This document shows positions 1-45,000 of a stretch of 64,000 nucleotides of DNA, one piece after another; position 1 is the first letter of the stretch; every line of letters starts with the position of its first letter. The notes under the pieces are model-generated. The model did not search any database and had not been told where the DNA came from. It saw nothing but the letters and a program-made list of their open reading frames with translations. A program made the position numbers and the translations under genes. This DNA is from Lichenostomus cassidix (Eukaryota > Chordata > Aves > Passeriformes > Meliphagidae). The DNA is taken from the NCBI GenBank assembly GCA_008360975.2, contig VLJF02000034.1, positions 2,439,810-2,503,809 on the forward strand, read 5' to 3'.

Positions 1-36
1 TCTCACCAGTCCCTGCGCAGCCGTTTCTGCGGCGGG
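1..36 (-). repeat. Second copy of the SRRT exon 2 3' edge with its donor
   Basis: Bases 1-36 repeat 91-126 almost perfectly. Both read on the minus strand as the end of SRRT exon 2 (QKRLRRD) followed by GTGAGA. The unit is 90 bp. Only the upstream copy (exon ending at 99) is joined to a full exon. Confidence 0.85.
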
Positions 37-98
37 GTATCGGGCAGGATTTTGGGGTGAATTAGGGTGTTTTTGGGGTTTATTTTGGGGTCTCTCAC

Positions 99-1320
99 CA
101 GTCCCTGCGCAGCCGTTTCTGCGGCGGGCTCAGCTCGTGCCGCGGCGGGGAGAACCGTTCCCGCCGGGTTCGGTCATAGTCCCGGTAATCGCGGCTGCGG
201 CGCTCCCGACCCCGCTCCCAGTCCCTGTGTGGGGACAAAACCCCAAAATCAGTGACCTTCCCTTCCCCGCTCCCAGTCCCTGTGTGGGGACAAACCCTAA
301 AATCAGTGACTTTCCCTGTCCCGCTCCCAGTCCCTGTGTGGGGACAAAACCCCAAAATCAGTGACCCCCAGCCCCGCTCCCAGTCCCTAATTAGGGACAA
401 ACCCCAAATCAGTGACCTTCCCCACCCTGCTGATCCCCCCGACCCCGCTCCCAGTCCCTGTGTGGGGACAAACCCTAATCAGTGACCCCCTTCCCTGCTC
501 CCAGTCCCTGTTTGGGGACAAAACCCCAAATCAGTGACCTTCCCCGGCCCCACTGACCCCCAGCCCCGCTCCCAGTCCCTGTGTGGGGACAAAACCCCAA
601 AATCAGTGACCCCCAGCCCCGCTCCCAGTCCCTAATTAGGGACAAACCCCAAATCAGTGACCTTCCCCACCCTGTTGCCAGTCCCTGTTTGGGGACAAAA
701 ACCCAAAATCAGTGGCCTTCCCCTCCCTGCTGACCCCAGTTCCTATTTGGGGACAAACCCCAAAATCAGTGACCTTCCCCTCCCCATCCCCAGTCCCTAA
801 TTGGGGACAAAACCCCGAATCAGTGACCTTCCCCTCCCTGCTGACCCCAGTCGCTATTTGAGGACAAAATCCCAAAATCAGTGATTTTCCCCAGCCCTGT
901 TCCCTGTCCCTATTTGGGGACAAAACCCTAAAATCAGTGACCTTCCCCTCCCAACTGACCCCAGTCCCTAACTGGGGACAAAACCCCAAATCAGTGACCT
1001 TCCCTACCCCAGTGACCCCAGTCCCTAATTAGGGACAAACCCCAAAATCAGTAACCCCCAGCCCCGCTCCCAGTCCCTGTTTGGGGACAAATCCCAAAAC
1101 CAGTGACCCCCACCCCATTCCCAGTCCCTATTTGAGGACAAAACCCCAAACCAGTGACTGTCCCCTCCCCGCTGACCCCCCCGGCGCCGCTGGTCACTCA
1201 CCGGTCACTCCAGTCGTCGCGCCGCCGCTCGTCCCTCTCCCGGGATCGGTCATAGTCGCTCCGCTCCCGCCGGAACTTGTCCCTGCGGCGCCGGTCGTAC
1301 TCGTCATCGCTGTCCCCCAT
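99..1320 (-). CDS. SRRT: Serrate RNA effector (ARS2), first two coding exons
   Basis: SRRT bridges the nuclear cap-binding complex to RNA-processing and decay machineries. Only the 5' coding part lies here. Exon 1 (1202-1320) starts at the ATG read down from 1320 and encodes [16 protein letters not shown] and more Arg/Asp-rich sequence, ending at a GTGAGT donor. Exon 2 (99-224) continues with ERGRERRSR and then [18 protein letters not shown], the signature N-terminus of vertebrate ARS2. Phases agree: exon 1 leaves two bases and exon 2 completes an Arg codon. The remaining exons lie beyond the left edge. Intron 1 is almost wholly a minisatellite copying the exon 2 acceptor, and the exon 2 donor edge is copied at 1-36. 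The gene model is sure for these two exons; which acceptor copy is used is an inference. Confidence 0.93.
225..1170 (-). repeat. SRRT intron 1 minisatellite carrying acceptor copies
   Basis: About 17 units of roughly 50-60 bp fill the intron. Each contains, on the minus strand, TTTGTCCCCACACAG or a variant, followed by GGACTGGGAGCGGGG, i.e. the exon 2 acceptor and first exon bases. The GGGACAAA core recurs at about 232, 291, 340, 395, 466, 514, 585, 640, 693, 751, 806, 918, 975, 1032 and 1085. Some units have CTAATTAG in place of CACACAG. Confidence 0.85.
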
Positions 1321-1900
1321 CCTGGGGGGACACCGGCGGTCAGCGGGGCGGGGAGACCCCGACTGACCCCGAGTGACCCACTGACCGCAGCCCCCGGGAC
1401 CCCAAACCTGACAGAGAGACCCCCGAGTGACCCCGAGTGACCCACTGACCGAGGCCTCAGCGCCCCAGGGACCCCAAAACTGACCCCAAACCTGACAGAG
1501 AGACCCCAAAGTGACCCCAAATGTGACCCCAAGTGACCCACAGACTCCCCCAAATACCCATCCCAGCCCCCCAGGACCCCCAAATCCTAATCCTTGCCCC
1601 CCGAGACCCCAAATCCTCACCCCAGACCGCCGAGACCCCAAATCTGACCCCAAACCGAGACCTCCCTGGATCCCTCACATCAAACCCCAAATCTGAGACC
1701 CTCCAGACCCCAAATGACCTCCCCAAAGCCCCCCCAGACCAGAGACCCTCCCAGGACCCCCAAACCCCCACCCCAGCCCCCCAGGACCCCCAGATCCCCA
1801 CCTCAGCCCCACAATTTCCCCAATTTCCCCACAAATTTCCCCAAATTTCCCCACAAATTTCCCCAAATTTCCCCGAATTCCCGCCGAACCTCAGCCCCCG
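1321..1900. repeat. C-rich low-complexity stretch upstream of SRRT coding start
   Basis: Short irregular repeats built on GACCCCAAA and CCCAGGACCCC, ending in a run of AATTTCCCCAAATTTCCCC. Probably SRRT 5'UTR intron. No gene is seen in it. Confidence 0.6.
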
Positions 1901-2560
1901 AGCCCCCTCACGACCGGCCTGGCTGATGCCTTGCGGCACCCCATCGCCCCCATCCCCCCCCCGCCCCCTCCCCCCACCCCTCAGCCCCCTGCTGGTCACG
2001 CCGCCGCTCCGTGACGTCACACCGGGACCCCCCCGGACCTGCCGCGCGCCCCGGCCCCGCGCGCCGCTGCCCGCTCGCTTCCGGCCCGCGCCGGCCGGAA
2101 GTGACGCCGAGCGGCGCCGCCAAGATGGCTCCGCCGGAACCGGGGGGGGGAGAGCGGCGGCGGCCGCTCCGGTCGGCGGGGAGGACCGCGCCGCTGGTTT
2201 GCCGTCCCCACCCTCCGGGGGTTTACCCGCTGCCGCTCCGGTTTGAACGGGCAGAGGAACCGCCCAGGCCGCTGCCGGAGCTCCCCGCGAGGCCCGGCGG
2301 CAGGCCCGGCCGGCCGGCGCGCTCCTCTCTATGGTCACCGGCGGCGCTCTGGCCGCGGCCGGGAGGACTCGCTCTCGGTGGTGCTCCGCCCCCGCCGCGC
2401 TCCCATTGGCCGCCGCTCCCCCCGCGCGCGCGCGCAGGCCACGCCCACCCCGCCATCTTCTCCGCGCGCGGGGGGGTCACGTGACGCGGGGGGGGTTGCC
2501 GCGCCGCCATTTTGTCTCGCGGAGCTTCGCGCATGCGCGGAGAGAGTCCTGAGGCTGCGC
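1900..2560 (-). promoter_or_regulatory. CpG-island promoter of SRRT
   Basis: This interval is dense in CpG and lies just upstream of the SRRT coding exons. It contains a YY1-like CCAAGATGGC near 2118-2128, several CG-rich Sp1-like boxes, and an inverted CCAAT (CCCATTGGCC) near 2401. SRRT in other vertebrates has a non-coding first exon, so the start site is probably here. No TATA box is seen. Confidence 0.6.
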
Positions 2561-2572
2561 CGGGCAGCGCCT

Positions 2573-2950
2573 GTGCCAGTTGGGACCAGTTCGGACCAGT
2601 ATAGACCAGTTTGGACCAGTATGGACCAGTATGGACCAGTATAGACCAGTATGGACCTGTTTGGACCAGTTTGGACCAGTTTGGACCAGTTCGGACCAGT
2701 TGGGACCAGTTTGGGACCAGTATGGACCAGTGCGGACCAGTATGGGACCAGTATGGAGCAGTATGAACCAGTATGGACCAGTATAGACCAGTATGGACCA
2801 GTATGGACCAGTATAGACCAGTATGGACCAGTTTGGGACCAGTTTGACACCAGTGTGACACCAGTATGGACCAGTACGGACCAGTTTGGCCTCAGTATGG
2901 CACCAGTTTGGGACCAGTATGGCACCAGTTTGACACCAGTGTGACACCAG
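2573..2950. repeat. 10-11 bp minisatellite, TATGGACCAG
   Basis: More than 30 units of TATGGACCAGT, with variants TTTGGACCAGT, TATAGACCAGT and TTCGGACCAGT, follow directly after the SRRT CpG island. Towards the end units become TTTGGGACCAG and TGTGACACCAG. Confidence 0.9.
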
Positions 2951-2954
2951 TGCT

Positions 2955-4515
2955 CCCAGTATGGCCCCAGTGTCCTCCCAGTGCTCCCAGTTCCCTCCCA
3001 GTGCTCCCAGTGCTCCCCAGATGTTCAGGATGTTTGTAGGGATTGGTGAGACCCTCTTACTGGTTTATACTGGTTTATACTGGTCCAGTTCCCCTCTCTG
3101 CTCTCCCAGCCATTCCCAGTCATTCCCAGTTCCCCCCAGTTCCCTCCCAGTCATTTCCAGTCCATTCCCAGTTCCCCTCTCTGCCTCTTCCAGTCCCTCC
3201 CAGTCCGCCCAGTTCCCCTCTGTCCCTCTCCCAGTCATTCCCAGTCCCTCCCAGTTTGCCCAGTTACCCCCAACTCCCTCCCAGTCCCAATTTAGGCCCC
3301 CCAGTTCCCTCCCAGTTCCCCCCAATTCCCTCCCAGTCCCATTTTTAGACTCTCCAGTTATCCTCAATTCCCTCCCAGTCAATCCCAGTCCATTCCCAGT
3401 CCCTCCCAATTTGCCCAGTTTCCCCCCAATTCTCCCCCAGTCCCTCCCAGTTCCCCTCTCTGCCCTCCCAGTCCTTCCCAGTCCCTCCCATTCCCCCCCA
3501 GTTCCCCTCTCCGCTCTCCTAGTCTCCCCCAGTCATTCCCAGATCCCTCCCAGTTTGCCCAGTTCCCCCCCAATTCCCCCCCAGTCCCTCCCAGTTCCCC
3601 CCTCTGCTCTCCCAGTCCATTTCCAGTCTCCTCCCAGTCATTCCCAGTCATTTCCCAGTTCCCCTCTCTCCCTCTCCCAGTGCCTCCCAGTCCCCCCAGT
3701 CATTCCCAGTCCCTCCCAGTGATTCTCAGTCCATTCCCAGTTCCCCTCTCCTCTCTCCCAGTCCATCCCAGTCCATTCCCAGTCCCCCTCAGTCATTCCA
3801 AATCCCTCCCAGTTTGCCCAGTTCCCCCCCAATTCCCTCCCAGTCCCTCCCAGTTCCACCCCAGTTCCCCTTTTCTCTCTCCCAGTCCATTCCCAGTTCC
3901 CCCCAGTCCCTCCCAGTTATTCCCAATTCCCCCCAATTCCATCCCAGTCCATTCCCAGTCCCTCCCAGTTCCCTCTCTCCCTCTCCCAGTCCCCCCAGTC
4001 TCTCCCAGTTCCACCCCAGTCCCTCCCAGTCCCTCCCAGTCCATTCCCAGTCATTCCCAGTTTGCCCAGTTCCCCTTCCCTCCCAGTCCCCCCAGTCCAA
4101 TCCCAGTCCATTCCCAGTTCCCCCCAGTCCCTCCCAGTCCCTCCCAGTCATTCCTCAGTCCCTCCCAGTCCTTCCAGTCCCCTTCCCTCCCAGTCCATTC
4201 CCAGTCATTCCCAGTTTGCCTTCCCCCACCCCTCCCAGTCCCCCCAGTTCCCCTCTCTCCTCTCCCAGTCACCTCCAATCCCCCAGTCCCTCCCAGTCCC
4301 ATCCCAGTCCATTCCCAGTCCCTCCCAGTTCCCTCCCAGTCCAATCCCAGTCCCCCAATCCCCCAGTCCCTCCCAGTCCCTCCCAGTTCCATCCCAGTCC
4401 CTCCCAGTCCCCACCTCCAGTCCATTCCCAGTCCCTCCCAGTTCCCCTCTCTCCCTCTCCCAGTCCCCCCCAGTGGCTCCCAGTCCCTCCCAGTCCCTCC
4501 CAGTCCGCATCCTGC
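2955..4515. repeat. CCCAGTCCCTCCCAGTTCC minisatellite block
   Basis: A 1.5 kb pyrimidine-rich array of CCCAGT-based decamers (CCCAGTCCCTCCCAGT, CCCAGTTCCCCTCTC). No coding pattern: all frames are shadows of the repeat. Confidence 0.85.
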
Positions 4516-4619
4516 CGCCCCTCCCTGGAAGTTGAGGAACAAAAGCTCTTTTCCTGCGGGGGGGGAGGGGCGAGTTCCCCCCGCGACCCCCGCGACCCCC
4601 GGGGGGAGGGGCGGCGGGC

Positions 4620-5848
4620 CGGGAAACCCCAAAAACGGCCGAAATCACCCCAAAAACGGCCGAAACCACCCCAAAAACGGCCCAAATCACCCCAAAAACG
4701 GCCGGGGAGGAGGGGCGGGAGCCCCAAACTGCCACCCTCCTGGGGATTTGGGGGATTTTTGGGATCCGCAAAGGGATTTTGGGATCCCCGAAGAGATTTT
4801 GGGATCCCCAAGGAGGTTTTTGGGATCCCCGAAGAGGATTTTGGGATCCTCCAAGGGGTTTTGGGATCCCCAAGGAGGTTTTTGGGATCCCCGAAGAGAT
4901 TTTAGGATCCCAGAAGAGGTTTTGGGATCCCCAAGGAGGTTTTTGGGATCCTCCTGGGACTTTTTTCGGGACGCCCCGAATTGTCGGGACTCTCCCGCTT
5001 TTTTTTTGGGGGGGATTTTTGGGACCCCACGGGTTTTTGGGGTCCTACCTGACTTTTTGGGACTCTCCGCAATTTTTTGGGACTCTCCCCGACTTTTTGG
5101 GACTCTCCACCGATTTTTGGGATCTTCCCTGATTTATTTGGACTCTCCGCAATTTTTTGGGACTCTCCCCGGATTTTTGGGACTCTCCGAACTCTCGGGA
5201 TTCTCTCCCACCACGTTTTGAGTCACCTCTGCATTTTTGGGATCCCCCCGAACTCCTGGGACCCTCCGGACTTCTGGGATTTCCCTGGATTTTGGGGATT
5301 TCCCCTGGATTTTTGGGATTTTCGGGATTTCCCCTTGGATTTGGGATTTCTCCAGATTTTTGGAATTTCCCCCCGGATTTTTGGGATTCTCCTGATTTTT
5401 GGGACCCCCTGGATTTGGGATTTCCCCCTGGATTTTTAGTATTTCCCCCTGGATTTGGGATTTCTCTGGATTTTTGGGAGTTCCCTAGATTTCTGGGATT
5501 TCCCCCGGATTTTTTGGACTCTCCAGATTTTTGGGATTTCCCCCTGCATTTTTGGGATTTTTCTCCCTGGATTTTGGGATTTCCCTGGATTTTTAGGATT
5601 TTTCCCTGGATTTGGGATTTCTCCCAGGATTTTTGGGATTTCCTCCTGGATTTGGGATTTCCCCGGATTTTTAGGACTCTCCAGATTTTTGCAACCCCCT
5701 GGATTTGGGATTTTCCCCCTGGATTTTTGGGACTCTCCAGATTTTTGGGATTTCCCCCTGGATTTGAGATTTCCCCCCGGATTTTTGGGATTTCCCGGAT
5801 TTTGGGACCCCCTGGGTTTGGGATTTCCCGGATTTTGGGATCCCCGCC
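4620..5848. repeat. Three successive minisatellites upstream of EPHB4
   Basis: Four copies of CCCCAAAAACGGCCGAAATCA occupy 4620-4705. Then TTTTGGGATCCCCAAGGAGG-type units run to about 5000, TTTTTGGGACTCTCC units to about 5220, and GGATTTTTGGGATTTCCCC units to the EPHB4 start codon. Any EPHB4 promoter or 5'UTR must lie within or between these arrays. Confidence 0.8.
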
Positions 5849-21279
<15,431 letters not shown>

Positions 21280-21303
21280 CCACGCCCCCAGCCCCACCGG
21301 GGC

Positions 21304-24800: not shown

Positions 24801-27800
24801 GGACCCCTGTGGGGGCCAAAGGGGGGGCCGGAGGGGTCCCAGGGGTCACCCAGGGGTCACCCAGGGGTCACCGGGGGAGCCCCACCCCAAATGTTGGGGT
24901 CACCCAAAGGTCAGGGAAGAGCCAGGAAATCCAGGGACCTCCCCTCCCCCCATGTCACTGCAATTTGGGATCTCCCAAAGACCCCCGGCCCCGCCCTGGC
25001 CACACCCCAGCCCCGCCCCGGCCACGCCCCAGCCACACCCTCACCCTCTCGGCCAATGGCGGCGAAGAACCGGGCGAGCTCCAGCAGCAGGGCGGTGCCC
25101 ACGCCCGAGGCCGCCGCCCCCGGCCCCAGCGAATCACGTTGAGCCCCCACAATGACGTAGCAGTCTGGGCGGGGCCAAAGTCAGGGAGGCCACGCCCCTC
25201 CAGCTACACCCACCCAACAATGGCTCCGCCCCAGTCTCATCTCCACCCCAATGGCCACACCCATTTCTTGCCCCACCCACTTTGGCCATGGCTCCACAAT
25301 GACCCTGCACTAGCCACACCCACACCCAAATTAGCCACGCCCATCCAACCCCAATCTGCCCTCCTATGGCTCCACCCCTTCCCATGACCACACCCAGGTT
25401 CTGACCACACCCATGTCCACGCCCCTTTCATGCCCCACCCAGACTGACCACACCCCCATATCCTCCAGGCCACACCCACCTCAGCCACACCCCATTGACC
25501 ACGCCCATTCCCGCCCCACCCCGCTTGGCCCCGCCCCTCACCTGGCTCCAGCCGCCCCCGCAGCGCCCCGAAAACGCTGGTGAGGGTCCCGGGGCGGGTG
25601 CCCCCCCCCACCCGGAGCTGCAGGCGCCGCCCCCCCGGGGGGGGCAGGAACTGCAGGAACCCCCCGAGACCCCCGGGGGACACCCAGCGCGGGGGGGCGC
25701 GGGGACCCCCGAGGACCCTGGGTGGGAGGGGAGATGGTTAGGGGGGTTGGGAACCCAAATGGCGAGGGGGAGATGGTTAGGGGGGTTGGGGAACCCCAAA
25801 TCCCTAAAATGGGGAGGGGAAAAGGTCAGTGGGGCTTGGGAACCCGAAATCCAGCCCAGGCCGGACACAGGGTTAGGGTGGTTTTGGGGGAAATCCCAGA
25901 TTTGGGGGGAAGTCCCAGATTTCGGGGGCAAATCCCAAATATTTGGGGAAATCCCAGATCTTGGGGTTCGCCCCGTACCGCAGCAGCTTCGCGGCCGTGT
26001 TGGCGCTGATGGGGTGCGCGGGGATCGGGGGGACCCCCGGGGGGGTCCCGGGGGGGGCGCGGCCGGTGAAGGAGGGGAACCCCCTGCTGAAGGGGTCTCC
26101 AGCCCCATCCTGCACCTGCGGGGACACGGCAGACCCCAGACCCCCAAATCATCCCCAAAACCTCCCCAGAGCCCCCAAATCATCCCTGAAACCCCCCCAG
26201 ACCCCCCAAATTATCCCCAAAACCCCCCCAGACCCCCCAAATTATCCCCAAAACCCCCCCAGACACCCCAAATTATCCCTGAAACCCCCTCAGACCCCCC
26301 AAATTATCCCTGAAACCCCCCCAGACCCCAAATCATTCCCGAAACCCCGACCCCCAAATTATCCCCAAACCCCCAGCCCCCAAATTATCCCTGAAAACCC
26401 CAGCACCCCCAAATCACCCCCAGACCCCCAGCACCCCCAGTCTCCCAGACCCCCAAGCCCCCACCCCAGCACCCCAGAGCCCCCAGATCTTCCCACAAGA
26501 CCACCAGAGACCCCTCCCACCCCAAAACTGACCCCCAGGACCCCAGGACCTCCCAATGTCCCCCAGCCCCCCCACTCACGTGGACAGTCACGGCCGTGTC
26601 GCCCCCCAGCCCTGAGCCCCCCCCGGGTCCGGCCATGTCCAGGGGGTCAGGGTACAGCAGGACCCCCACGGCCCCCTCCCCCGCTGCCGCGGCCACCTGC
26701 GGGGAAAATGTCACAGGGAGACCCCAAACCCACCCCAAACCCACCCCAACTCACCCCAAACCCACCCCAAACCCACCCAAAACCCACCCCAACCCCACCC
26801 CAAACCCACCCCAAACCCACCCCAAACCCACCGCAAACCCACCCCAACCCACCCCAAACCCATCCCAACCCCACCCCAAACCCACCCCAACCCACCCCAA
26901 ACCCCCATTTTGGGGTCCCACCTCCTGGGCTGGGGTCCTCTCGTCCCCCCCATTGTCCCCCCAGGTTTTGGGGTCTCACCTTCTGGGCGGGGCTGCCCCT
27001 CCCCCCCAACGCTCCCAATTTAGGGGATTTTTTGGGAATTTTTGGGGATTTTTTTGGGAATTTTTGGGGATTTTTTGGGGATTTTTTGGGGATTTTTTTT
27101 GGGAATTTTTGGTGTCTCACCTTCTGGGCGGGGCTGCCCCTCCCCAGCCGCAGCAGCATCAGGTGTCCCTTGGCCGAGACCCCCCTGGCCCGGAGCTCGG
27201 CCAGGTCCTGCGGCCGGCCGTAGTGACCATAGACCAGCCCGCCCTGCCGGCAGCGGTCAGCGGGGGTGAGCGGTCAGTGGTCAAGGGGTCAGGGGTCAGG
27301 GGTCAGCTCTCACCGTGGCGTTGCCGGGCGAGCTCCAGGCGCAGAAAGCTTCGGGGTCAAGGCGGAGTCGCTCTAGCTCCTCCCCCTCCGGCCCCACCCA
27401 GCGCAGGGTCACCTCCCCCCTGGGGTCAAAGGTCATGGGGTCAGGGTCACTCTACAACTCAACTGTGACCACCCCCAATGACCCCAGGGACTTCTGACCT
27501 TCCCTGACCCCTCCTGTGCCCCCGAATGACCACCCTGACCCCTGTGACCCCCGTGACCTCCTGTGACCTCCCTGTGACCCCCCTGACCCCCCTGTGACCC
27601 CCATGACCCCCCTGACCCCCCTGTGACCCCCCTGACCCCCCTGACCCCCCTGTGACCCCCCCGACCCCCCGTTACCTGACCGGGAGGGGGAGGGGCTGTG
27701 GGCGGCTCCAGGCCCGGGTCAGCCCCGCCCCCGCCATGGCGCTGAGCACTGATTGGGCCAAAGCCAGGCCGCGCTCTGACCCCGCCCCGTGCGGCCCCGC

Positions 27801-29570: not shown

Positions 29571-29634
29571 CTCATAAATACTCTCTTGTTTACATTAAGT
29601 TACATGGGGGGTCGGGGGCGCTGTCTCCCCTGAG

Positions 29635-30280
29635 TGACAGCTGTCAATCAATCACCCGCGGGGCCTGGGCAGCTCGGGGTGCTCAGGCGGGAGGGGGATG
29701 ATTGACAGCTGTCAATCACCTGCCGGCACGTCCAACGTGCCGGGGGGAGGGGAGGGGGTGCTGTTGGTGCTCTTGATGCTGGAGATTGACAGCTGTCACT
29801 GCTCTTGATTGACAGCTGTCACTGCTCTTGATTGACAGCTGTCGGTGCTCTTGATGTTGATCCTGACTGACAGCTGTCACTTCAGCTGAATGATTGCTGT
29901 CTCTGCTGCCGATTGACAGCTCTGAGTTCTGATGACTGACAGCTGTCAGTGCTGTTGATTGACAGCTGCCAGTGCTGTTGGTGACGTCAGTGCTGATGAC
30001 CGAGGGCTGTCTGTGATGATTGGCAGCTGTTGTCGATGTTTGGCAGCTGCCGGAGATGATTGACAGCTGCTGGCGATGACTGACAGCTGCCGGTGCTGAT
30101 TGACAGTTACCCATAATGATCGGCAGCTCGCTGCGTTGATTGACAGCTGCCGATGATGACAGGCTAAGAATGTCCTCTTTCGGCAGTGATTGACAGCTGT
30201 CTGCGGTGATTGACTGCTGTCTGCGGTGATTGACAGCTGTCGGCGGTGATTGACAGCTGTCGGCGGTGATTGACAGCCGC
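29635..30280. repeat. TGACAGCTGTCA array between TFR2 and EPO
   Basis: About 20 irregular units of ATTGACAGCTGTC with spacers of 10-20 bp. At least six are the full 12-bp palindrome TGACAGCTGTCA, a composite TALE-homeodomain (TGIF/PKNOX/MEIS) dimer motif containing an E-box CAGCTG. The array abuts the EPO stop codon, so it is EPO 3'UTR and 3' flank. Confidence 0.85.
29723..29743. promoter_or_regulatory. Inverted pair of hypoxia-response cores 3' of EPO
   Basis: CCGGCACGT, spacer CCA, ACGTGCCGG: a perfect 9-bp inverted repeat with an ACGTG core (the HIF RCGTG consensus) on each strand. It lies 540 bp beyond the EPO stop, the side where the mammalian EPO hypoxia enhancer sits. Function is inferred from position and motif only. 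Confidence 0.45.
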
Positions 30281-30282
30281 GG

Positions 30283-32748
30283 TCACCGCGGGCAAGCGTC
30301 GGCCAGGAAGAGCCGAACTTTGCCGCGCAGGAAGCGGCTGAGGACCCCCAGGAGCCGCGGGAGGCTCTGGACCCTCAGCGGGGCGGGGGGCGAGGGCAGC
30401 GGCGGGGCCTGGGGAGAGGACAGCGGTCAGCGGTGCCGCCGGACACCCCAAAAACCCGCGGCGACCCCCAAACCCAGCCCGGAGCAGAGCAGGAACCCCC
30501 TGGGACCCTCCAGGATCCTCCAGAAAAACACCCAAAGCTTTTCCATCGCTGTCCCGGACCCCCAGGACCCCCCCAGGATCCCCCGACCCGCCGTTTCTCC
30601 CAGCTCGGGGACCCCCGCAACTGCCGCGCCAGACCCCAAACACCCCAAACCCTTCCGGGACCCCCCAAAACCCCCGAAATCCCCCCAGACCTCCCAGTAC
30701 CGGCGCGGGCAGCCCCGCAGCAGCCGGAACAGACCCCAACCCCTCCAAAGCCCTCCAGGACCCCCCAAATTTCCCCAAATCCGCCGTACCGGCGCGGGCA
30801 GCCCCCGCAGCAGCCGGAACAGACCCCAGACTCCCCCCAAAGCCCTCCCTTATCCCCCAGATTTCCCCAAATCAGCCGTACCGGCGCGGGCAGCCCCCGC
30901 AGCAGCCACGCCAGGCTCCGCGCGGCGCCGTAGGCTCGGTCGAGGGTCGGGCGCACTCGGGGGTCCCGCAGCAGCTCCCGCGCCCGCAGCACCGCGGCCA
31001 CCAGGGCCGCCTGTCCCCCGGCCACCTCCTGCGCGCGGGACTCCGCCTGGGGACACGGCGGGGGGGTCACCGCGGGCCGAGGGGACAACGCGGGGACCCG
31101 GGGACGAGGGGTCACGCAGGGACAGGGGGACACGGGGGGGACACGGGGCGTCCCGACATTGCCAACCCTCCCCGGGATCCCACTCACCCCGGTCCAGCCC
31201 AGCCACCCCCTTCTCCCGGGGTTTTCCCTGGTTTTACCCATTTTTTTATCTATTTCCCTCACTTTCCGTCCTATTTCTCTCCATCCCTCCACGCTTCCCC
31301 CCATTTCCCCACTTTCAGCGCAGTTAGCCCCACTTCTCCGGGTTTCTCCCCGTTTTGCCCAGTTCCTCTTTATTTCTCTCCACATTTTTCCTATTTTCCC
31401 CGATTTCTCCCCACATCTCCCTGATTTTCTGTGTTTCTCCCTGGTTTTCCCTATTTCTCCCTGTGTTCCCCCATTTCTCCCACATTTCTCCAGCATATTT
31501 CCTCCCATTTTTCCCGATTTCCCTGAGTTTCGCCCCGTTTTTCCCGATTTCCCGGGATTTCCCCCATTCCCACTCACGTCCAGGCTCCGCCAGAGGTTGA
31601 AGTTGACGCCGGGGTCGGGGACGGCGACAGGCTCGGGGAGGTCACAGTGGGGGCCACACCCGGCCTGGGGGGGACACACAGTGACACCCCCGCCACGACC
31701 CCGCGGGTCCCCGAGACCCACTAGTGTCCCCAAACCCTCCAGGGTGTCCCCAGCTGTGTCCCCAACCCCCGTAAGATGTCTGCAACATCCCCAGGGTGTC
31801 CCCCTCGATGTCCCTGTGTCCCCCGCGGTGTCCCCAAGCCCCTCCGGGGGTCCCGCCCTCACCCCCACCCCGCTCTGCATCACACCCCCCCCGATGTCCC
31901 CGAGCCCCCTCGATGTCCCCGAGCCCCCCCGATGTCCCCGAGCCCCCCCGATGTCCCCGAGCCGCGCTCACCACCCCCCGCTCGGCGTCGCGGGCCTCCA
32001 GGATGAAGCGTTCGATCACTCGGGGGTCGCAGAGCGAGGGGGGACCCTCGGGGGGAGGCTGGGGGCGCCCCGCGACCCCCAACAGCAGCAGCAGCAGCAG
32101 CGCGCAGAGCCCTGGGGGGGGACGGGGGGGTCAGGGACCGCCGTGTCCCACTGGGGGCACCGCGACCCCTGGGGAGACTCCTCCCCGCGGGGCTGGGGGG
32201 CTCGGGTGCCTGAGGGAACCCCCCGGACCCCCTAACCGCGGGACCCCCGCGATACCTGAGCGACCCCGCCGCCAGAATGTCCCGGGGGTTTGGCGTCCCT
32301 GATGCCGGGGACCCCCCGCCCACCTGGTGGCCTCCAGAAGCCCCCGAGACAGAGGAGTCCTTTGGGACACTCGGGACCCCCCGCCCACGTGGTGTCCCCA
32401 GAGCCCCCCGCCCTCCCGGGACCCCCTCCCCACCCGTGTCCGTGCCGGACAGCTGAGCGCGCCGGACACACGTGGGGACCCTCGGACTCCCGAACCGTCC
32501 CGGACACGCGGGTGTCCCCCACCCACCCCAGACCCGCAGCCCCCCGGGGACACGCGGGACCCCCCCGGTTACCTGCGGCACCCCCCCGCCCGGTCCCGCC
32601 GCACACGTGGGTGTTCCCCCCTCCCCCGCACACCTGGCTCCCTCCCGCACACCTGGACACTCCCACTCCCCTTCCCGGGATGTCCCATCCCGCCCCCCCA
32701 ACCCGTGCGACCCCCCCGGGACCCCCGCCACTCACCCGCCGCCCCCAT
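30283..32748 (-). CDS. EPO: Erythropoietin
   Basis: Secreted four-helix cytokine driving red-cell production. Exons: 32736-32748, 31972-32111, 31578-31664, 30882-31046, 30283-30408; total 531 bases, 176 residues (human 193). Exon 1 is 13 bases and exon 3 is 87 bases, the same lengths as in mammals. A Leu-rich signal peptide (seven Leu in a row) precedes LCDPRVIERFILEARDAE; then AGCGPHC, VNFNLWRSL, ARSLAWLLRGL, SRFLRGKVRLF and ADACPR at the C-terminus. The four cysteines of the two disulfides align. Receptor-contact residues corresponding to human R103, S104, L108, R110, R150, G151 and K152 are kept, but N147 is Arg. No N-x-S/T sequon exists anywhere. It lies beside POP7, as in mammals. Family identity is clear; expression and the choice of exon 4 donor are untested. 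Confidence 0.92.
30690..30882 (-). repeat. Copies of the EPO exon 4 donor edge
   Basis: The exon 4 end (minus CGGGGGCTGCCCGCGCCG then GTACGG, boundary 30882) recurs at about 30787-30812 and 30698-30723, about 92 bp apart, the second with GTACTG. Spacers are CCCCAAATCCCCCC-like. Confidence 0.85.
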
Positions 32749-32943
32749 CGCCGGCTGCTCATGGCACGGGGGTCCCTGGCGGCCCCGGGGCTGTGGCCGT
32801 CCCCGTCCCGCGTCCCCCGGCCCCGGCCCCGGTTAATGTTTGATCCGAGGGGCCGCGGGGCCGGAAGGGCCCTTGGGGGGGGGTTTTCCATCCGCTCCCC
32901 CCTCGCCCCCCCCAGACCGTCGAGGAAAAGGCCGCGCCGGCCG

Positions 32944-32954
32944 CCGCACGTCGG
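32944..32954 (-). promoter_or_regulatory. Hypoxia-response-like core upstream of EPO
   Basis: On the minus strand GACGTGCGG, a match to RCGTG, lies about 200 bp upstream of the EPO start codon in a CpG-rich stretch (32,750-33,000) that is the likely promoter. A single 5-base core is weak evidence. Confidence 0.25.
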
Positions 32955-32999
32955 CCCCTGGCCACGGGCCACCCCCGGCCCCGGCCACGGCGCCGGCGA

Positions 33000-34265
33000 G
33001 GCGGGGGGGACACGGGGGGGACACGGGGGGAGGGACACGGGGGGGACACAGGGATGGAGAGCTGGGCGCGGAGGTGTGGGAATGGGGGGACACTGGGGGG
33101 ACACGGAGAGGGGAAAGGGGGGGACACGGGGGGGGACACGGGGATGGGGTTTGGGAGTGGGGTGACACGGGTGGGACACGTGTGGGGACACTGGGGAGGA
33201 CAGGGGGGTGACATGGAGATGTGGGAATGGAGGGACACAGAGGGGACACGGATGGGGGGAAGGGGAGGACATGTGGGGGGACACGTGGACAGGGAAAGAC
33301 GGGGACACGGGGGTGACACGGAGGGGACACGGGGGTGACACGGAGGGGACACGGGGATGGCGACTTGGGCATGGAGGTGTGGGGATGGAGAGACACGGGG
33401 GAAAGGAGATACGGGGGGGACAAGGTGGGGACACAGGGACAAGGAGCTGGGGGACCATGGAGACGAGGGATCGGGGATGAGGGTGGGGAAGTGGGGACAG
33501 GGGGACGTGCAGTCGGGGTGACACGGTGACAGGGATGGGGGGACAGAGCTGGGGATGTGGGACATGGGACACCCGGATGGCGGAGGGGACACGGGGACAG
33601 TGTCCTGGGCAAGGAGGTGCGGGATGGGGACAGTGGCGGGGGGACAGGGACGTCAGGAGGGGGACAGAGGAGGGGACACGGGGATGACAAAGTGGGCATG
33701 GAGATGCACCGCAGGGACGGTGGTGACATGGGGATGGGGGACAGAGACGGAGACAGAGACATGGGGACACGTGGCTGCGGCTGAGGGGACACGGCCACGG
33801 GGTGGCACAGGGACACGGGGACACCCCCGCAGGGCCGTGGGACCGCGGTGACACGCGCGCGGCGACACACACGCGGTGACAAGGGGACGCGCCAGGCCGG
33901 GGGATCCCGGGATCCCTCGGGCCGGCGGAAGCGGCCGAACAATGGGGCAGCGTCACTGTCGCCGTCACTGTCCCCGTCCCCAGCGCCACCGCGGCCCCGG
34001 GGGCGGCTCCGGGGACCCCCGCGGCGGGGAGGGACACGGGGGGAGGGAGGGGGGACACGCCGAGGGGAGGGGACACGGGGGAAGCAGGGGACGCGGGGGA
34101 CACGGGGACACGGGAGGGGACGGGGGACACAGGTGACACAGGAGGCGACACGGGGATGCGGGAGCGGATGGAGGCGACACGGCGGACACGGGGGACTCGG
34201 GAGGGGAGCCGGGGGACCCAGGTGACACGGGAGGTGACACGGGGGACCCGGGAGGTGACACGGGC
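33000..34265. repeat. GGGGACACGG minisatellite between EPO and POP7
   Basis: GGGGGGACACGGGG and GGGGACACGGGGATGG units with AGACGG and GTGACACGG variants. Mostly non-coding, no recognisable gene. Sequence from 34265 to 34900 is CACCTGGGTGTCCCC-type low complexity. Confidence 0.85.
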
Positions 34266-34925
34266 CCCCTGCCAGGCCGTACGTGCGGCTCCGCACAGCC
34301 CGGCCGCGGGTCCGGCGCCAGCGGGGCCAAAGGGCACCCGGGGGCGGGGGGACGGCGACAGGGACGTCACCGACGCCGCCGGGTCCCCCTGCGTCACCTG
34401 GGAGTCCCCCGTGGCAGCGGGGTGTCCCCCCGACAGGGACTCCCCCACAGAGCCGGGACTCCCCGGGAACGGGGGCTGCACACCTGGGAGCTCCCCGGGT
34501 CACCTGGAGTCCCCTCTTGTCACCTGACACCCCCCGGGTGCCTGGCGGTCCCTTTGATCACCTGGGTGTCCCTTCTGCCACCGGGGTGGCCCTTTGTCAC
34601 CTGGGTCACCCTCATTTCCCCACCCCTCAGCCCCCCATGGATGTCTAAGTGTCTCCGGTGTCACTTGTCCTCCCCCTTCGTCAACCAAGTCCCCACATTT
34701 CCCCCCGGGGGGCTTTCCTTGTCACCTACTTGCCCCCCAGCCACCCTGTTGTCACCTGTACCCTCCCCCTGAGCCCCCCCTCCCGTCCCCAGGGTCCCCC
34801 ATTGTCACCTGGGGGTTTCCTGCCCCAAATGTCACCAATGACAGAGGAAGCCCCAGCCCAACACCCCTAAATCGTCCCCAAATCCCCCCAAAGCCCCCGG
34901 AGGCGCTGCTGCTGCTGCCACTGAC

Positions 34926-34931
34926 TTTATT
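34926..34931 (-). other. Polyadenylation signal of POP7
   Basis: AATAAA on the minus strand about 575 bases after the POP7 stop. Confidence 0.65.
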
Positions 34932-35506
34932 TTGGTGTCACATCCCTGCGTCCCCCCAAAGTCCCCGAGGCTGCTCTTGGGGACACACAGGGTGACATCA
35001 AGGGGCTCAGGGGCACCTTGGTGGCCCCAGATCACGGCGGTCTCGACCCACTGGTGGCAGCTTGGTGGCCTTGAGCCATTGGTGGCATCGTCCGTGTCCC
35101 CAGAACGTCAGTGGCTCCAGGTCACTGTGTCACCAAGGCCATCGGTGACTCATGGTGGCCTCGAATCCTTGGTGGCATCTGGGTGTCCCCAGGTCCTTGA
35201 TGACTCGTGGTGGCCTCAGTTCAAGGTGGTCTTGACCCACGGGTGACCCCAGGGGGCTTTGGTGTCCCCAGGGTGTCCCCAAGGCCTTCTGTGGTGTCCC
35301 TGCAGCCGTGATGGACGTGGGGGACTCCCGGGGGGGGTTTGGGGTGTCCCCACGAGGGTGACAGAGCCCAGGACAGCTGGGGAGCCCCCAGGACTTTGGG
35401 GACACCCCAGTCACCCCCAGGAAGCCACTGACCTCGGCAGGGAGCCCCCACCGGCTCCAGAAGCCCCCAAAGCCTCGGGAAGCCCCCCGGGACCCCCGGA
35501 CCCCCC

Positions 35507-36004
35507 TCAGGCGCACGGAGCCTCCCTGCAGAGCCGGATGTGGATGGCCGAGTTGTGCCGGGGGGGCTCCCCGTCCTCCCCCTCCCCTTCCTCGTCGCCG
35601 TCGCCGTCGCCCCGTGCCGGGGGGGCCCTGCGGGAGCCGCGGGGGGGCCGCAGCGGCACGGAGGAGGTGCTGGCGTGGAGCCGCAGGGCGCCCCCGGCCC
35701 CCGCCTGCAGCTGCAGCGCCAGGTTGATGGTGCGCGGCACGGCCAGCCCCAAACCGTGCAGCCGCAGCTCGCCGGGCGGCGCGGCGCCGGTACCGGGAGC
35801 TCCCCCCGGGGACAGCAGCCGCTGGCAGCGCCGCAGCTGCGCCCGGAAATCCGAGCGTGACGTCACGAACACGTCATTGGTGGCGGGCCCGGCGGGGGGG
35901 GCCGGGGGGGGGCGCGGGGCGGGGCCGCGGCGGCGGCGGCGGGGGGGCGGCCCGGGGAGCCCCCCCGGGGGAGGGGACGGAGCGGCGGGGCGAACCGAGG
36001 ACAT
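35507..36004 (-). CDS. POP7: Ribonuclease P/MRP subunit p20
   Basis: Alba-fold protein that with POP1 and RPP25 binds the P3 domain of RNase P and MRP RNA. The coding sequence is uninterrupted, 165 residues (human 140). The ATG at 36004 is preceded by CCCCCCAG, so the coding exon follows a non-coding first exon as in mammals. Alba-fold hallmarks: NDVFVTSRSDFRAQLRRCQ, LRLHGLGLAVPRTINLALQLQ and the C-terminal NSAIHIRL. The first 40 residues are a Pro/Arg-rich tail unlike the mammalian N-terminus, and an acidic insert (DGDGDEEGEGEDGE) precedes the last strand. Lies between EPO and a shared promoter with ACTL6B. Confidence 0.92.
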   Translation of the reverse strand: MSSVRPAAPSPPPGGLPGPPPRRRRRGPAPRPPPAPPAGPATNDVFVTSRSDFRAQLRRCQRLLSPGGAPGTGAAPPGELRLHGLGLAVPRTINLALQLQAGAGGALRLHASTSSVPLRPPRGSRRAPPARGDGDGDEEGEGEDGEPPRHNSAIHIRLCREAPCA

Positions 36005-36009
36005 TCTGG

Positions 36010-36890
36010 GGGGAAAAACGGGGAGGGGGTCAGGGAGGGGTCGCAGAGCCACCCCGAGACCACCCGGAGCCTCCCTCACTCCTCACCCTCCCGACTCGCT
36101 CCAGAGCCCCAAACTCCCCCCAGGGACCCTCCCGAAGCCACCGAGACCCCCGCGATCCCCCCGGGGAGCTCCCACGGGACCCCCAGGAGCCACTCGGGAC
36201 CCCTCCACGCCCCCCAGGATATCCCAAACACCCCCCGATCTCCCCCGAAGACCCCCGGGACCCCCCAAATCCGCCCCCCGCCCGCACCTCGCGCGTCCCG
36301 CGCCGCCGCCGCTTCCGCTCCGAGGCCACGCCTTCCCCGGGGCCACGCCCCCCGAGAGCCACGCCCCCTCGGCCCCGCCCGAACCAAACCACGCCCCGCA
36401 GTGACCGCGCCCCCTTCCCGCGGAGCGTTTTTGGGAGATTTGGGGACTTTTTACGCAAAATACGGGGTGAGCCCCGCCCCTCTCTCCCCGCACGAGTCCC
36501 GCCCCCCGAATCCGCACCGAATTTTGGTGCTTTTTTCAACGAAACCCACAATTCCTCCCCTCCTGCCCCCCAACAGCGACGGAGCGGATCGGGGGGATCT
36601 TGTAGGAGGGGCGTAAAGGAAGCCCCGCCCATTTCCCATAGACCACGCCCCTACAGCGACAGTGGGCGTGGCTTCCCACATCGGAACACGCCCACAAAGG
36701 GGAGGAGTGACACCGCTCAGAACACGCCCCCCCAAGCCACGCCCCTCTCCTTTAACAAAGGGCCGCGGCTCCTTTAAGCGCCGCCATTGCGGCCGCAGCC
36801 AATGGGCGCGCGCGCCGCACGGCGGGCGCTGATTGGGCGCGGGCTCGGCCCCGCCCCCCGGCCGGCGCTGTCCCGGTGCTGAACGCGGCC
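36010..36890. promoter_or_regulatory. Bidirectional CpG promoter of POP7 and ACTL6B
   Basis: The two start codons are 886 bp apart, diverging. The interval has CpG-dense blocks, a probable POP7 first-exon donor near 36285, and GCCAATGGGCGCGCG near 36801 just before ACTL6B. No TATA box. Confidence 0.6.
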
Positions 36891-40935
<4,045 letters not shown>

Positions 40936-41033
40936 GGGGAGCCCTGCCCCTGAGGGGGGTTTGTGCTCCTGAGGGGATTTTGTGCCCCTGAGGGGGGTTT
41001 GTGCCCCTGAGGGGAAAAAATGGGGAAAAAACC

Positions 41034-41039
41034 ATTAAA
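41034..41039 (+). other. Polyadenylation signal of ACTL6B
   Basis: ATTAAA 98 bases after the ACTL6B stop. Confidence 0.6.
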
Positions 41040-41139
41040 ACCCGCAAAATCCACCTGAAACCAGTTCTGAGGCGCCTGAGTGGCCTGGTGGCCGTGGGGC
41101 TCACGGGGGGTGTTTGTGCGAGCGGCGAAAGAGGCTTTT

Positions 41140-42037
41140 CTCCGATTCCGGCGGTTTTCGCCTCAAAACGGAGCGCGGGCGGCGCTCCTCCGCGCGCCCG
41201 GTCACGTGACGGGGGGGGGGGGCAGAGAGGCGCGCGGGAGGCACGTGCCGGGAGGAGGCGCCGTGCGCGCGCGAGACGCCGCGCGGCCCTCGCGAGACCC
41301 GGCCGGCACCGCCCTGCGGCCGCGGCGGGAAACGCGCACTGTTCTCGCGAGAGCCGCGCGGGCCGCGCCGTTACCGGGCGGCCGGTCGGGTGACGTCACG
41401 GGCGGAGCGATGACGTAAGCACGCGGCCGAGGCGCGGAGGAGACACCAGCGCTGGAACGGGAGGGGTGTGGGGGGGGAAAGCGCTCGCACTGCGCACGCT
41501 CCAGCCCCGCGCGGACTCCAACTGCCGGCAACCCCCGCGCGCGCGGCGAGGCCTCCGCGCCGGGCGCCCGTTCTCCGCCTGCTCCGCCTTGCCGCCGCCC
41601 GCTCTTCCCCCTCCGCGCACTTCGCCCTTTCCCGCGTAGCTCCCGAACCACCATAGCTATAACCCCCCCGGCTCCCTGTCCTCCTCCCCCGCCCGCCTTT
41701 TCTCCGCGTTTTCCGCGCAGGCGCTCGCCGCGGCCACCGCAAGCTCCTCAAGCCCCCCTCTCTCTCCGCGCGCGCCGCCTCTCCTCATTGGCCGCCGTGC
41801 GCCGCGCAGCCGCTCCTATTGGCGGCGCGCTAGCGTCCCACCCCCTTTTGTGGGCGTGCACTGCCCAATCCCCGCCTCTCCGCTATATAAGCGCCGCCGG
41901 GCCGCCGCGGCGCTGCCATCGCGGGCGGGAGGCGGCGGGCTCGGAGGGCCCGCGCGCGCGGCTCCCCCCGCTCCCCCCTCCGGCCGCGCATGCGTGAGGG
42001 CGGCGCGGCGCAGCGCGCAGGCGCGGGCCGGGCCGCC
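41140..42037 (+). promoter_or_regulatory. MEPCE promoter and 5'UTR
   Basis: Strong CpG island. Elements in order: CTCGCGAGA at 41289-41297, TCTCGCGAGA at 41343-41352, CRE palindrome TGACGTCA at 41391-41398, CRE-like TGACGTAA at 41411-41418, inverted CCAAT boxes near 41786 and 41815, CCAAT near 41866, and TATATAA at 41884-41890. Transcription probably starts about 30 bp after the TATA box. Confidence 0.7.
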
Positions 42038-45000
42038 ATGGCGGCGGCGCCTGAGGCCTTCCTGGTGCCGCCGCCGCCGCCGCCTCCTCCCGCTGCCGCC
42101 GCCGCGCCCCCGGGACCCCCGGACCCGCCCGAGCCCCCGCGGCCCCGCAATGGCCTCCGCACGGCGGGCGGCGGCGGCGGGAAGCGGCGCAGCAGCTGCG
42201 GGGCGAAGCAGCCGGCGTGGAAGCGGCGGCGCCGCGCGGCCTCGGAGTGCGGCCCGGTGCTGCCGTCCGAGTTCCTGCTCGGCGGGAACATCTTCGACCC
42301 GCTCAACCTCAACAGCCTCCTGGACGAGGAGGTGAGCCGAGCGCTGAACGCGCGCACCCCGCAGTCTTCGCCGCTCCCGCAGCGCGGCCGCGACCCCGTG
42401 GAGATCCTGGTGCCGCGGGACATCACGGACCCGCTGAGCCTCAACGCGCCGGGCGAGGGGCTGCGCTTGGCGTCCCCGGCCAAGAGCGCGCGGCGCCGGC
42501 ACCGCCACCGCGGGCAGCAACGGGCCGGCACCGCCGGCGCCGCCTCCGCCAACGCCGCCGGCAGCGGGCACGGCGAGGAGCCCGCCCGCCCCGCCGAACC
42601 CTCCGCCGCTCCCACCGCCCCGCCGTGCCCCGCCGCCCTCCCCGCCCCCGGCCGGCACCGCAAGCGCCGACGGACTTGCAGCAAATCCGAGGGGCCTCGC
42701 CCGCCGCCCCCTCCCGCTGCCGAGAAGCCGAAGCCCCCCGGGAAGGCGGCGCAGCGGCCGCGGCACCAGGTGCGCAAGTTCCAGTACGGGAATTACTGCA
42801 AATACTACGGGTACCGCAACCCGGACGTGGAGGACGCGCGGCTGCGGGCGCTGCGGCCCGAGTGGTTCACGGGGAAGGAGGTGCTGGACGTGGGGTGCAA
42901 CGTGGGGCACCTCACGCTGAGCATCGCCAAGCGCTGGGCGCCCTCCAGGATGGTGGGGCTGGACATTGACGGGCGGCTGATCCGCTCGGCCCGGCAGAAC
43001 ATCCGCCACTACCTGTCCGAGGGGCTGGGGGCGGACGGCGACGCCGCGGGGGGAGCCAGGAAAGGCTTCCCCGCCGCGCTCTTGGCCAGCCGGGGCCCCA
43101 TCGCCGCCCCGCAGCTTCCCCCCGACGGGCCCGGGGCCACCGATTTCCCGCACAACGTCGTGTTTGTCACGGTGAGTGCGCGGGAGGGGTTTGGAGGGGG
43201 GCGAGGGAAGGCTTTTGGGGGCTTTTGGGGGCTTTTGGGGGAGTGACAAGTGGGGACAGGGGCTGGAGGGGGTTTGGGATGGGTTTTGGCAGGTGGTGGT
43301 GAGTCTAAAAGGGGCTTGAAGAGAGTTCTGTCAAGGTCTTGGATGGGTTTATGGGGGTGTTGGTGGATTTTAGGGGGTGACAAGAAGGAACGGGGGTTTG
43401 GAGGGGATTTGTAAGGCCTTGCTGGGTGTAAAGGGGACTTGAAGAAAGTTTTAGGGGGGTGTTGGGGGATTGAAGGGGTTTACAATTGTGTGTGGGGGTT
43501 TGGGGGAGCTGTGAGATGGGTTTTGGAGGGTCTTAGGGGGTCTAAAAGGGGTGTGAAGGAAATTTTAGGAGGATCTTGGTGGGTTTAGGGGAAGGACAGA
43601 TAGATATCAGGGGGCTGGCGAGGACTTTAGGAAGGTCTTTGCTGGGTTTTTGGGGGTCTTGGTGGGTTTAAGGAGCCACAAGGGATCTAGAGGAGCTGAG
43701 AAGAGTTTTAAGAGGATCTTAGCTGAGTTTTGGGGGTTCTTGGTAGGCCTAGAGAGGTAACGGGGGGTTTGTGAGTCTGGGGGGATCTTAGATGGGTTTT
43801 GGGGGTGACAAATGGCATAGAGGGATGTTTGGGGTCTTGGTGGGTGTGAAGGGGTCACCAGGAGGTTGGAGGAATGTGGGATTTCCCCCTTTTCATCTCT
43901 GGGGTGTGTGGGGCAGCGCCAGACCTCGGTCTGGGGTCCCCAAAACCCAGCGTTTTTGGGAACCCCAGCGTGGGGTTCAGCGTGTGCCCCCCCAAATCCC
44001 TGGGTGGGACTCAGAACCTCCCAAAACCCAAAACCCCTCACTGGGGTTCAGTGTGTGCTCCCCAAATCCCTGGGTGGGACTCAGAACCTCCCAAAACCCC
44101 TCATTGGGGTTCAGCGTGTGCTCCCCACACCCTAAAACTCCTCTGAGGGACACCAAAACCCCTCACTGGGGTTCAGCATGTCCCCCCCACCCCCCAAAAC
44201 CTCTCGGTGGGTCTCCCCACCTCCCTCTGTGGGGCTCAGCACGTGCCCCCCAGCCCCTCAAACACCCCAAAACCCCTCCTGGTGCCCCCAAAACCCTGAC
44301 CGTGCCCCCCCCAGGGGAACTACGTCCCGGAGCGGGAGGAGGCGGTGGGGGCTCAGCGCCCCGAGTTCGACGTGGTGCTGCTGCTGTCCCTCACCAAGTG
44401 GGTGCAGCTCAACTGGGGGGACGAGGGGCTCAAGCGGCTCTTCCGGAGGGCATTCCGGCACCTGCGGCCCGGCGGGATCCTGCTGCTGGAGCCGCAGCCC
44501 TGGGAGTCGTATCGCAAGCGCAAGGGGCTCACGGTGAGTTTTGGGGGGCTCACGGTGAGTTTTGGGGGTCGTTTTTGGGGTCGCAGAAGGGTCTGGGGGG
44601 GAACTTGCTTCAGGAGCCCCAGCCGTTGGAATTTTTGTATCACCAATGCAGGGGGCTCGTGGTGAGGTTGGGGGGGCTTGGGGGTCACAGAGGGGTCATA
44701 AAGGGGTCTGGGGGGTCATGGAGAGGTTGTACAGGGGTCTGGGGGGTCATGGAGAGGTTGTACAGGGGTCTGGGGGGTCATGGAGAGGTTGTGCAGGGGT
44801 CTGGGGGGTCATGGAGAGGTTGTGCAGGGGTCTGGGGGATCTTTGTGGGGCTCTTGATTGGGTTTGGCGGCGATGTTTGAGGGGGTTTGAGGAAGTCTCA
44901 GTGGGGTTTTTGATTAAAGGAGGTTCAAGGGAGTCCCCGATGAATTTTTAGGGGGCTGAAAAGGTGCTGCCTTGGGCTCGGTGGGGTTTGGGGAGGTTAA

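Follow-up and report, generated by a model that had tools for sequence, protein, structure and literature searches.

Exon stuttering in a repeat-rich stretch of Lichenostomus cassidix DNA and a probably coding repeat array in EPHB4 exon 3

The DNA studied here was a 64-kb window from Lichenostomus cassidix (assembly GCA_008360975.2, contig VLJF02000034.1, positions 2,439,810 to 2,503,809 of the forward strand; "the window" denotes this whole stretch), in which minisatellites at exon–intron junctions copy exon edges together with their splice sites. In the best reading of the pattern, which includes coding stuttering in exon 3 of EPHB4, local tandem duplication is rampant and selection on coding sequence filters its outcome; we put the probability of this reading at roughly 75%. 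A tblastn comparison with human protein sequences, followed by spliced alignment, located six genes, namely SRRT (minus strand, 5′ end), EPHB4 (plus), TFR2 (minus), EPO (minus), ACTL6B (plus) and MEPCE (plus). The preliminary description of this DNA knew of no described general class of such repeats. That claim did not stand, since Hron et al. (Genome Biol Evol, February 2026; PMC12954441) described "exon stuttering", also termed sequence stuttering, on chicken dot chromosomes. The copying of exon edges was thus already published, and the probable coding-exon stuttering in EPHB4 is the new part.

The in-frame array in EPHB4 exon 3 was the part worth following. Its position was as follows:

7098 to 9408, plus strand: EPHB4 exon 3 (ligand-binding domain), 2311 nt, with 770 codons free of stops in the reading frame that exons 1 and 2 impose
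7278 to 8918, plus strand: in-frame minisatellite within this exon, in three blocks whose sequence includes (DS)

The whole EPHB4 model contained 1525 residues without a stop, and 547 of these lay between two conserved cysteines (codons 7275–7277 and 8919–8921). We take these to be the Cys97–Cys107 disulfide of human EPHB4, and the loop between them is presumably near the ephrin-binding face. Human EPHB4 exon 3 is one exon. The spacings between anchors in the array were multiples of three in 39 of 39 cases (14/14, 9/9, 9/9 and 7/7); the four anchor sets include two that overlap completely in coverage, and the count is 30/30 when one of these two is left out. At the junction arrays, the same was true of only 13 of 48 spacings (4/13, 1/14, 5/8, 0/4, 1/4 and 2/5), and the closest control, the 9-bp array of EPHB4 intron 2, gave 15 of 20. 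Furthermore, the mismatches among block 1 units were distributed over codon positions 1, 2 and 3 as 11, 26 and 44 (P = 4 × 10−5), and nine control readings of three intronic arrays showed no codon-position bias (smallest P 0.09). From its sequence, the array is probably coding stuttering within an exon whose frame has been kept intact.

Several results weighed against a coding array. The block 2 mismatches (37, 20 and 30; P = 0.08) had no third-position excess, and the alignment of the units was made at the protein level, a procedure that can shift differences towards third positions. In addition, two of the three forward frames were stop-free across the array, so that openness is weak evidence, and an open reading alone was rejected as proof of coding.

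Alternatively, the array might be spliced out as an intron that arose anew when a tandem repeat expanded within the exon. The spliced aligner first preferred to remove 7274–8887 as an intron. This split model of exon 3 was rejected, because it drops a cysteine that is present in three aligned Eph structures; these structures have no insert between the two cysteines. For splicing of the array to the two acceptors seen by eye near its right end, the only phase-matched GTs were at 7274 and 8816. The former would cost the conserved Cys codon at 7275, and the latter would retain nearly all of the array. Moreover, every spacing preserved the frame, for which an intron has no need, and motifs in the same frame recurred in other passerines. 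Some bird gene models, given below, are as such splicing would leave them. Taken with these, a new intron is doubtful, though it deserves to be weighed.

The predicted structure was used only for the strands flanking the insert and for the lack of predicted structure inside it, the AlphaFold model having a mean predicted local distance difference test score (pLDDT) of 48 and a predicted template modelling score of 0.40. Strands were predicted to either side of the insert (in blocks with a pLDDT of 80–90), and the insert was mostly below 50, with no strand or helix. The top Foldseek matches of the model were Eph ectodomains with low template modelling scores. Coding variable-number tandem repeats, such as the mucin-type repeats, are in-frame minisatellites in coding exons. 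The EPHB4 array shares this with them, as well as a length that differs between species. It was different from them in lying inside a folded ligand-binding domain, between conserved cysteines and at a stuttering locus. Nothing on an avian EPHB4 insert was found among the articles listed for EPHB4.

EPHB4 of other birds was compared using proteins from the best 120 of 1279 and the best 120 of 1587 listed matches, and 24 bird sequences were examined. Among the best 120 of 1279, the L. cassidix protein was nearest to those of a chickadee (87% identity) and a cuckoo-finch (85%). The bird sequences are automatic gene models, which attest to an open frame at one place in many lineages and not to translation. 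The distance between the cysteines was 9 residues in ostrich and 12 in alligator. It was 7–15 residues in 116 of the 117 other proteins retrieved, as judged by a pattern that could see only 5–20 residues; the lone non-match (P0018) was an unnamed metagenome-type entry. Among the matches listed, 13 of the 23 non-ostrich bird models had 117–650 residues between the cysteines: Ammospiza 168, Zonotrichia 269, Accipiter 208, Cuculus 305, Molothrus at least 117, Patagioenas 132, Corvus 268, Sarcoramphus 362, Passerculus 363, Pezoporus flaviventris 386, Grus 439, Ciconia 323 and Ara 650 (the Sarcoramphus, Passerculus and Ara models are marked low quality). Both cysteines were present in 11 of these 13. 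Crow and sparrow had, by eye, the same-frame motifs of the window, RGT/DS, PGH or AGH, and LHGN.

The bird models also held evidence of the opposite kind. The Ammospiza model was without the first cysteine, and the Molothrus model began inside the repeat. Six of the 23 (Poecile, Anomalospiza, Chamaea, Coccothraustes, Pezoporus wallicus and Numenius) had no insert, with 7–13 residues between the cysteines, which is in favour of a spliced-out intron, and one insert-free model was spliced much like the first EPHB4 model of the aligner. The Coccothraustes model, like that of Ammospiza, lacked the first cysteine, as splicing from 7274 would give. Four models (Passer, Prinia, Strigops and Columba) were uninformative. 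On balance, we lean towards translated stuttering in the EPHB4 ligand-binding domain of many neognaths, where lineage-specific, disordered and fast-changing repeats of about 110–650 residues would lie between the cysteines.

The exon-edge copying itself had been observed largely rightly. All ten main exon edges named in the preliminary description had copies with exon bases and the splice site. In the following, the junction counts include the real site unless copies are stated:

225 to 1179, minus strand: SRRT intron 1 array at the acceptor of coding exon 2, 15 copies with about 14 exon bases each
7 to 36, minus strand: copy of the SRRT exon 2 donor, the last 30 exon bases plus the donor GT (real exon end at base 99)
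9409 to 9770, plus strand: EPHB4 exon 3 donor, 3 junctions, the two copies having at most about 70 exon bases and their introns starting at 9586 and 9766
11811 to 12493, plus strand: EPHB4 exon 5 donor array, 4 copies with 49–50 exon bases at spacings of 121–167, 5 junctions
13662 to 14169, plus strand: EPHB4 exon 7 acceptor array, 6 copies and the real one (7 junctions), about 8 exon bases
14336 to 14960, plus strand: EPHB4 exon 7 donor array, 4 copies with 28–32 exon bases, 5 junctions
16430 to 17792, plus strand: EPHB4 exon 11 acceptor array, 14 copies ahead of the real site at 17793, 15 junctions
19760 to 20336, plus strand: EPHB4 exon 14 acceptor array, 8 copies with 26 exon bases at spacings of 68–78, 9 junctions with the real one at 20337
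26980 to 27004, minus strand: TFR2 donor copy, the last 25 exon bases followed by GTGAGA (real exon end at base 27121)
30697 to 30881, minus strand: EPO exon 4 donor, two copies with about 26 exon bases, 3 junctions
40030 to 40067, plus strand: degenerate copy of the ACTL6B exon 10 end, 38 nt at 92%, GT after the copy lost
19657 to 19694, plus strand: weak, partly deleted copy of the EPHB4 exon 13 end, two short collinear blocks (E 0.02 and 0.08)
18922 to 18990, plus strand: distal copy of the start of EPHB4 intron 10 and the exon 11 acceptor, in EPHB4 intron 12

The real SRRT exon 2 acceptor was at 224/225, and with it the array had 16 junctions; the copies were 50–71 bp apart with a single gap of 114. 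The SRRT exon 2 donor had one copy before the window ends, which was detected by the blastn screen described below. The TFR2 exon with the copied donor was the fourth modelled exon and is probably the exon 6 of the preliminary description. Of the three cases described there as degenerate, ACTL6B exon 10 was clear and EPHB4 exon 13 was weak, and no copy of the MEPCE exon 2 edge was found at the thresholds used (edge-probe and blastn comparison within the window), so that this case was dropped. The MEPCE introns held 62-bp and 31-bp minisatellites (44026–44200 and 44672–44838) without exon-edge copies at the same thresholds. When 104 exon edges were probed, 9 had at least one copy of 20 exon plus 10 intron bases at ≥80%. 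The ACTL6B exon 10 copy was visible only with a 30-base exon probe and the EPHB4 exon 7 acceptor only by pattern.

In chicken, exon stuttering was found in 236 introns of 115 genes, with 190 of the introns on dot chromosomes, where it affected 3.4% of introns (PMC12954441). More than 90% of the sources were at most 1 base from the border, the median was 4 copies, and there was length polymorphism (PMC12954441). Only this article turned up in the literature on the terms exon stuttering and sequence stuttering, and EPHB4 is absent from its main text. Like the chicken cases, as far as the available text describes them, those found here were imperfect tandem copies of an exon edge plus splice site in the adjacent intron, with the source within about one base of the border, in GC-rich and repeat-rich genes. 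According to the same text, no repeats crossed into exons and coding regions were intact (Hron et al. 2026), unlike the in-frame EPHB4 exon 3 array. Here, the rule that repeats do not cross into exons held for the intronic arrays and fails at the exon 3 array if that array is coding. The GC-rich "hidden" avian genes studied in 2019 (PMC6792250) also have introns that consist nearly entirely of tandemly repeated G-rich motifs, but the available text of that study reports no copying of exon edges or splice sites. The stretch that stutters here, rich in GC and saturated with repeats, resembles those found on avian dot chromosomes; its contig measures 2.56 Mb in an assembly of 1.10 Gb.

The screen of Hron et al. 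was adapted as an exon-versus-intron blastn on the plus strand only, with our own gene models and no multiple-source filter, and EPHB4 exon 3 was entered as its two outer pieces. Nine of the 51 introns in the window were positive at ≥42.1 bits, and all matches were in the adjacent intron. Shuffled introns reached a maximum of 24.3 bits over five rounds. In eight of the nine positive introns the source lay directly at the border (distance 0), and in the ninth its distance was 5. With the remainder of SRRT included and three SRRT micro-exons of ≤30 bases dropped, 15 of 67 introns were positive (EPHB4 5/15, SRRT 7/18, TFR2 1/15, EPO 1/3, ACTL6B 1/13 and MEPCE 0/3), and some SRRT matches beyond the window lay 3–43 bases from the border. 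Over these 67 introns, the positive ones were longer (median 984 vs 348 bp, P = 1 × 10−4) and more repeat-covered (0.82 vs 0.64, P = 0.014). The positive share was far above the 3.4% of chicken dot introns (PMC12954441), but the six neighbouring genes were chosen because the pattern had been seen there.

The preliminary description also held that the arrays start at exon edges so consistently that recombination or slippage might initiate there. The edge was found inside the unit, with a variable exon depth of 8–70 bases, and the copied sequence was scarcer at edges than in introns. Near copies were counted as 30-base windows with a ≥80% ungapped match within 2.5 kb, the EPHB4 exon 3 array being excluded. 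The share of intron windows with a near copy was 0.92 in SRRT, 0.78 in EPHB4, 0.49 in TFR2 and 0.11–0.21 in the other three genes, and that of exon windows was 0–0.044 over the six genes. From 100 to 25 bases inside the intron, the share was 0.28–0.41 (EPHB4 0.47–0.70); between 10 bases before the edge and 15 bases beyond it, it formed a flat shoulder at 0.08–0.10 (EPHB4 0.17–0.20); and beyond 35 exon bases it was about 0.02 or less (EPHB4 0.07 or less). Copied sequence was therefore common in introns, rarer at exon edges and rarest in exons, and its intron level was never reached at the edge. On this profile and the exon depth of 8–70 bases, the exon edge was rejected as a unit boundary.

The straddling of edges was then compared with random placement, using arrays of period ≥40, which were preferred over short periods and merged by hand from the repeat-finder list. 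Long-unit arrays straddled edges in 7 of 18 cases vs 3.6 expected (P = 0.049), and in EPHB4 alone in 5 of 10 vs 1.9 expected (P = 0.025). With four higher-order arrays added, EPHB4 gave 5/14 (P = 0.062). The test covered arrays inside the six gene models within the window; it did not include the array inside exon 3, the donors of EPHB4 exon 3 and SRRT exon 2, the single copies of TFR2 and ACTL6B or three TFR2 higher-order arrays. The excess is inflated, as exon sequence stands out as a unique landmark among the 10–21 bp repeats that fill the introns, and long intronic duplications are hard to see because the intron parts are themselves such repeats. It is also deflated by the omission of four straddling cases not called by Tandem Repeats Finder (EPHB4 exon 3 donor, SRRT exon 2 donor, TFR2 and ACTL6B).

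Such an excess, about twice random placement, is what would be expected if duplication or recombination preferentially started at exon edges, for example through co-transcriptional R-loops or splice-linked structures, and the arrays were anchored there. The four uncounted cases and the position of the richest arrays (16, 15 and 9 junctions) at acceptors point the same way. However, 11 of the 18 long arrays did not straddle an edge, copied sequence was scarcer at edges, the exon depth varied, and the landmark effect makes straddling arrays easier to call. A preferred start at edges is thus unlikely. An anchoring enrichment that demands a special mechanism was rejected on the straddling test, the excess being too small to need one, though not zero.

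Four points nevertheless tell against passive local duplication. The straddling excess is marginal (P = 0.025–0.06) with some cases omitted, which leaves room for a real edge preference. The exon share of nine units was only 8–39% (mean 26%) vs the half expected from unbiased breakpoints; the unit lengths were typed by hand (TFR2 was entered as 150 and is in fact 141). The distal copy in EPHB4 intron 12 (37 bp at 92% and 17 bp at 100%) lies beyond exons 11 and 12, two exons away, and breaks the strictly local pattern. In addition, seven distal SRRT matches were found around the duplication beside an assembly gap.

In the duplication-and-selection reading, recurrent local tandem duplication linked to replication or repair, by replication slippage or template switching, would be blind to exon borders. 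Selection would then act as the filter. Duplications wholly within introns would be free, and those straddling an edge would be tolerated, as the terminal copy beside the intact exon could still define the exon while the decoys are left on the intron side; exon definition would thus be what makes the decoys harmless. Duplications within exons would persist only if they preserved the frame and fell where the protein can accommodate them. As the frame statistics and the other birds suggest, the EPHB4 exon 3 loop between the cysteines would have grown in this way into a long, probably disordered insert. That the copies reach the border is expected in this reading, as only a junction-spanning unit can copy exon sequence locally into the intron without altering the exon. 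Local copying was in fact frame-blind at junctions, frame-true in exon 3 and denser in long, repeat-rich introns.

The units do copy splice sites, as had been described, and the decoys are evidently tolerated. When AG or GT was not made a requirement of the search, it was still present in 15/15 matches at exon 11, 8/8 at exon 14, 5/5 at exon 5, 5/5 at the exon 7 donor, 6/7 at the exon 7 acceptor and 2/2 in EPO. The SRRT acceptor copies were found by a pattern requiring AG and stand outside this count. The exon part of the units was also better kept than the far intron part (mean pairwise identity 0.80–0.97 vs 0.58–0.73 in eight arrays). It is not proof of selection, as short intron repeats also shift by insertions and deletions. 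No clear order of copy age with distance from the exon was seen by eye in the array alignments.

The copied sites might be useful, for instance if the exon 11 array acted as a row of recursive (ratchet) splice sites. CAG|GTGAGT, an acceptor abutting a consensus donor, is the sequence of 13 copies in this array and of the real site, so that juxtaposed acceptor and donor, as at ratchet points, were found at 14 sites, the real one included; the window held 15 matches vs 0.5 expected. Recursive-splicing exons likewise open with a donor motif directly after the acceptor (Mol Cell 2018; PMC6224609), but the available text describes one site per exon, and here there are 14 tandem sites. The high retention of AG and GT across arrays is in line with a use. 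On the other hand, GTGAGT is simply the start of EPHB4 exon 11, which encodes the glycine loop GEFGEV, and the intron with the array is only 1.4 kb long. Whole units are similar, so that retained AG and GT need no selection, and the single-copy decoys of ACTL6B exon 10 and EPHB4 exon 13 (the latter by eye) had lost their GT. A useful role is accordingly very unlikely. Splicing through one or more of the 13 such exon 11 decoys and on to exon 11 would give the same mRNA, and therefore the array may be neutral even if used.

Multiplication of copies by mis-assembly was also considered, as the copies cluster in repeat-rich DNA. About 17 kb to the left of the window, in the 3′ half of SRRT (L004:34-4166), two exons occurred twice at an offset of 2,942 bp with 500 N between the copies (L004:2296-2795), possibly a false duplication in the assembly, and one positive SRRT intron, which holds this 500-base gap, may be an assembly fault. 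However, the window itself has no N, and the copies inside the arrays varied among themselves in sequence and spacing. Raw nanopore reads confirmed the repeat structure of one chicken gene, PHF8 (PMC12954441). An assembly artefact as the source of the arrays is hardly credible.

The repeat landscape of the window was uneven. Tandem Repeats Finder gave 348 rows, and GC was 0.46–0.75. Tandem-repeat coverage, which reached 0.8, was 0.5–0.8 across SRRT and EPHB4; from about 35 kb of the window, through its right half and on to the end of the flank analysed, it was for the most part <0.2. The modelled SRRT coding sequence contained a Gly-Gln run, (GQ)n, in the flank (L004:8232-8363), which may be a further in-frame coding repeat of this locus. 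In birds, EPO has long proved difficult to find. Here a readable EPO gene with four modelled coding exons occupied 30283–32111 (minus strand), and a long degenerate run of GACAGCTGTCAATCA-type repeats (29784–30277) lay directly 3′ of its stop codon.

These results extend the chicken phenomenon to another bird, in named exons and at base resolution, and offer a passive explanation for copies reaching exon edges, for which anchoring is not needed. With their near-identical splice sites, the arrays put the spliceosome's choice of the correct site to a natural test. EPHB4 is the ephrin-B2 receptor of veins. If its exon 3 array is translated, stuttering alters proteins too, which would bear on the fast evolution or loss of dot-chromosome genes, and the array would be a natural experiment on how much disorder is tolerated in the ligand-binding domain of an Eph receptor.

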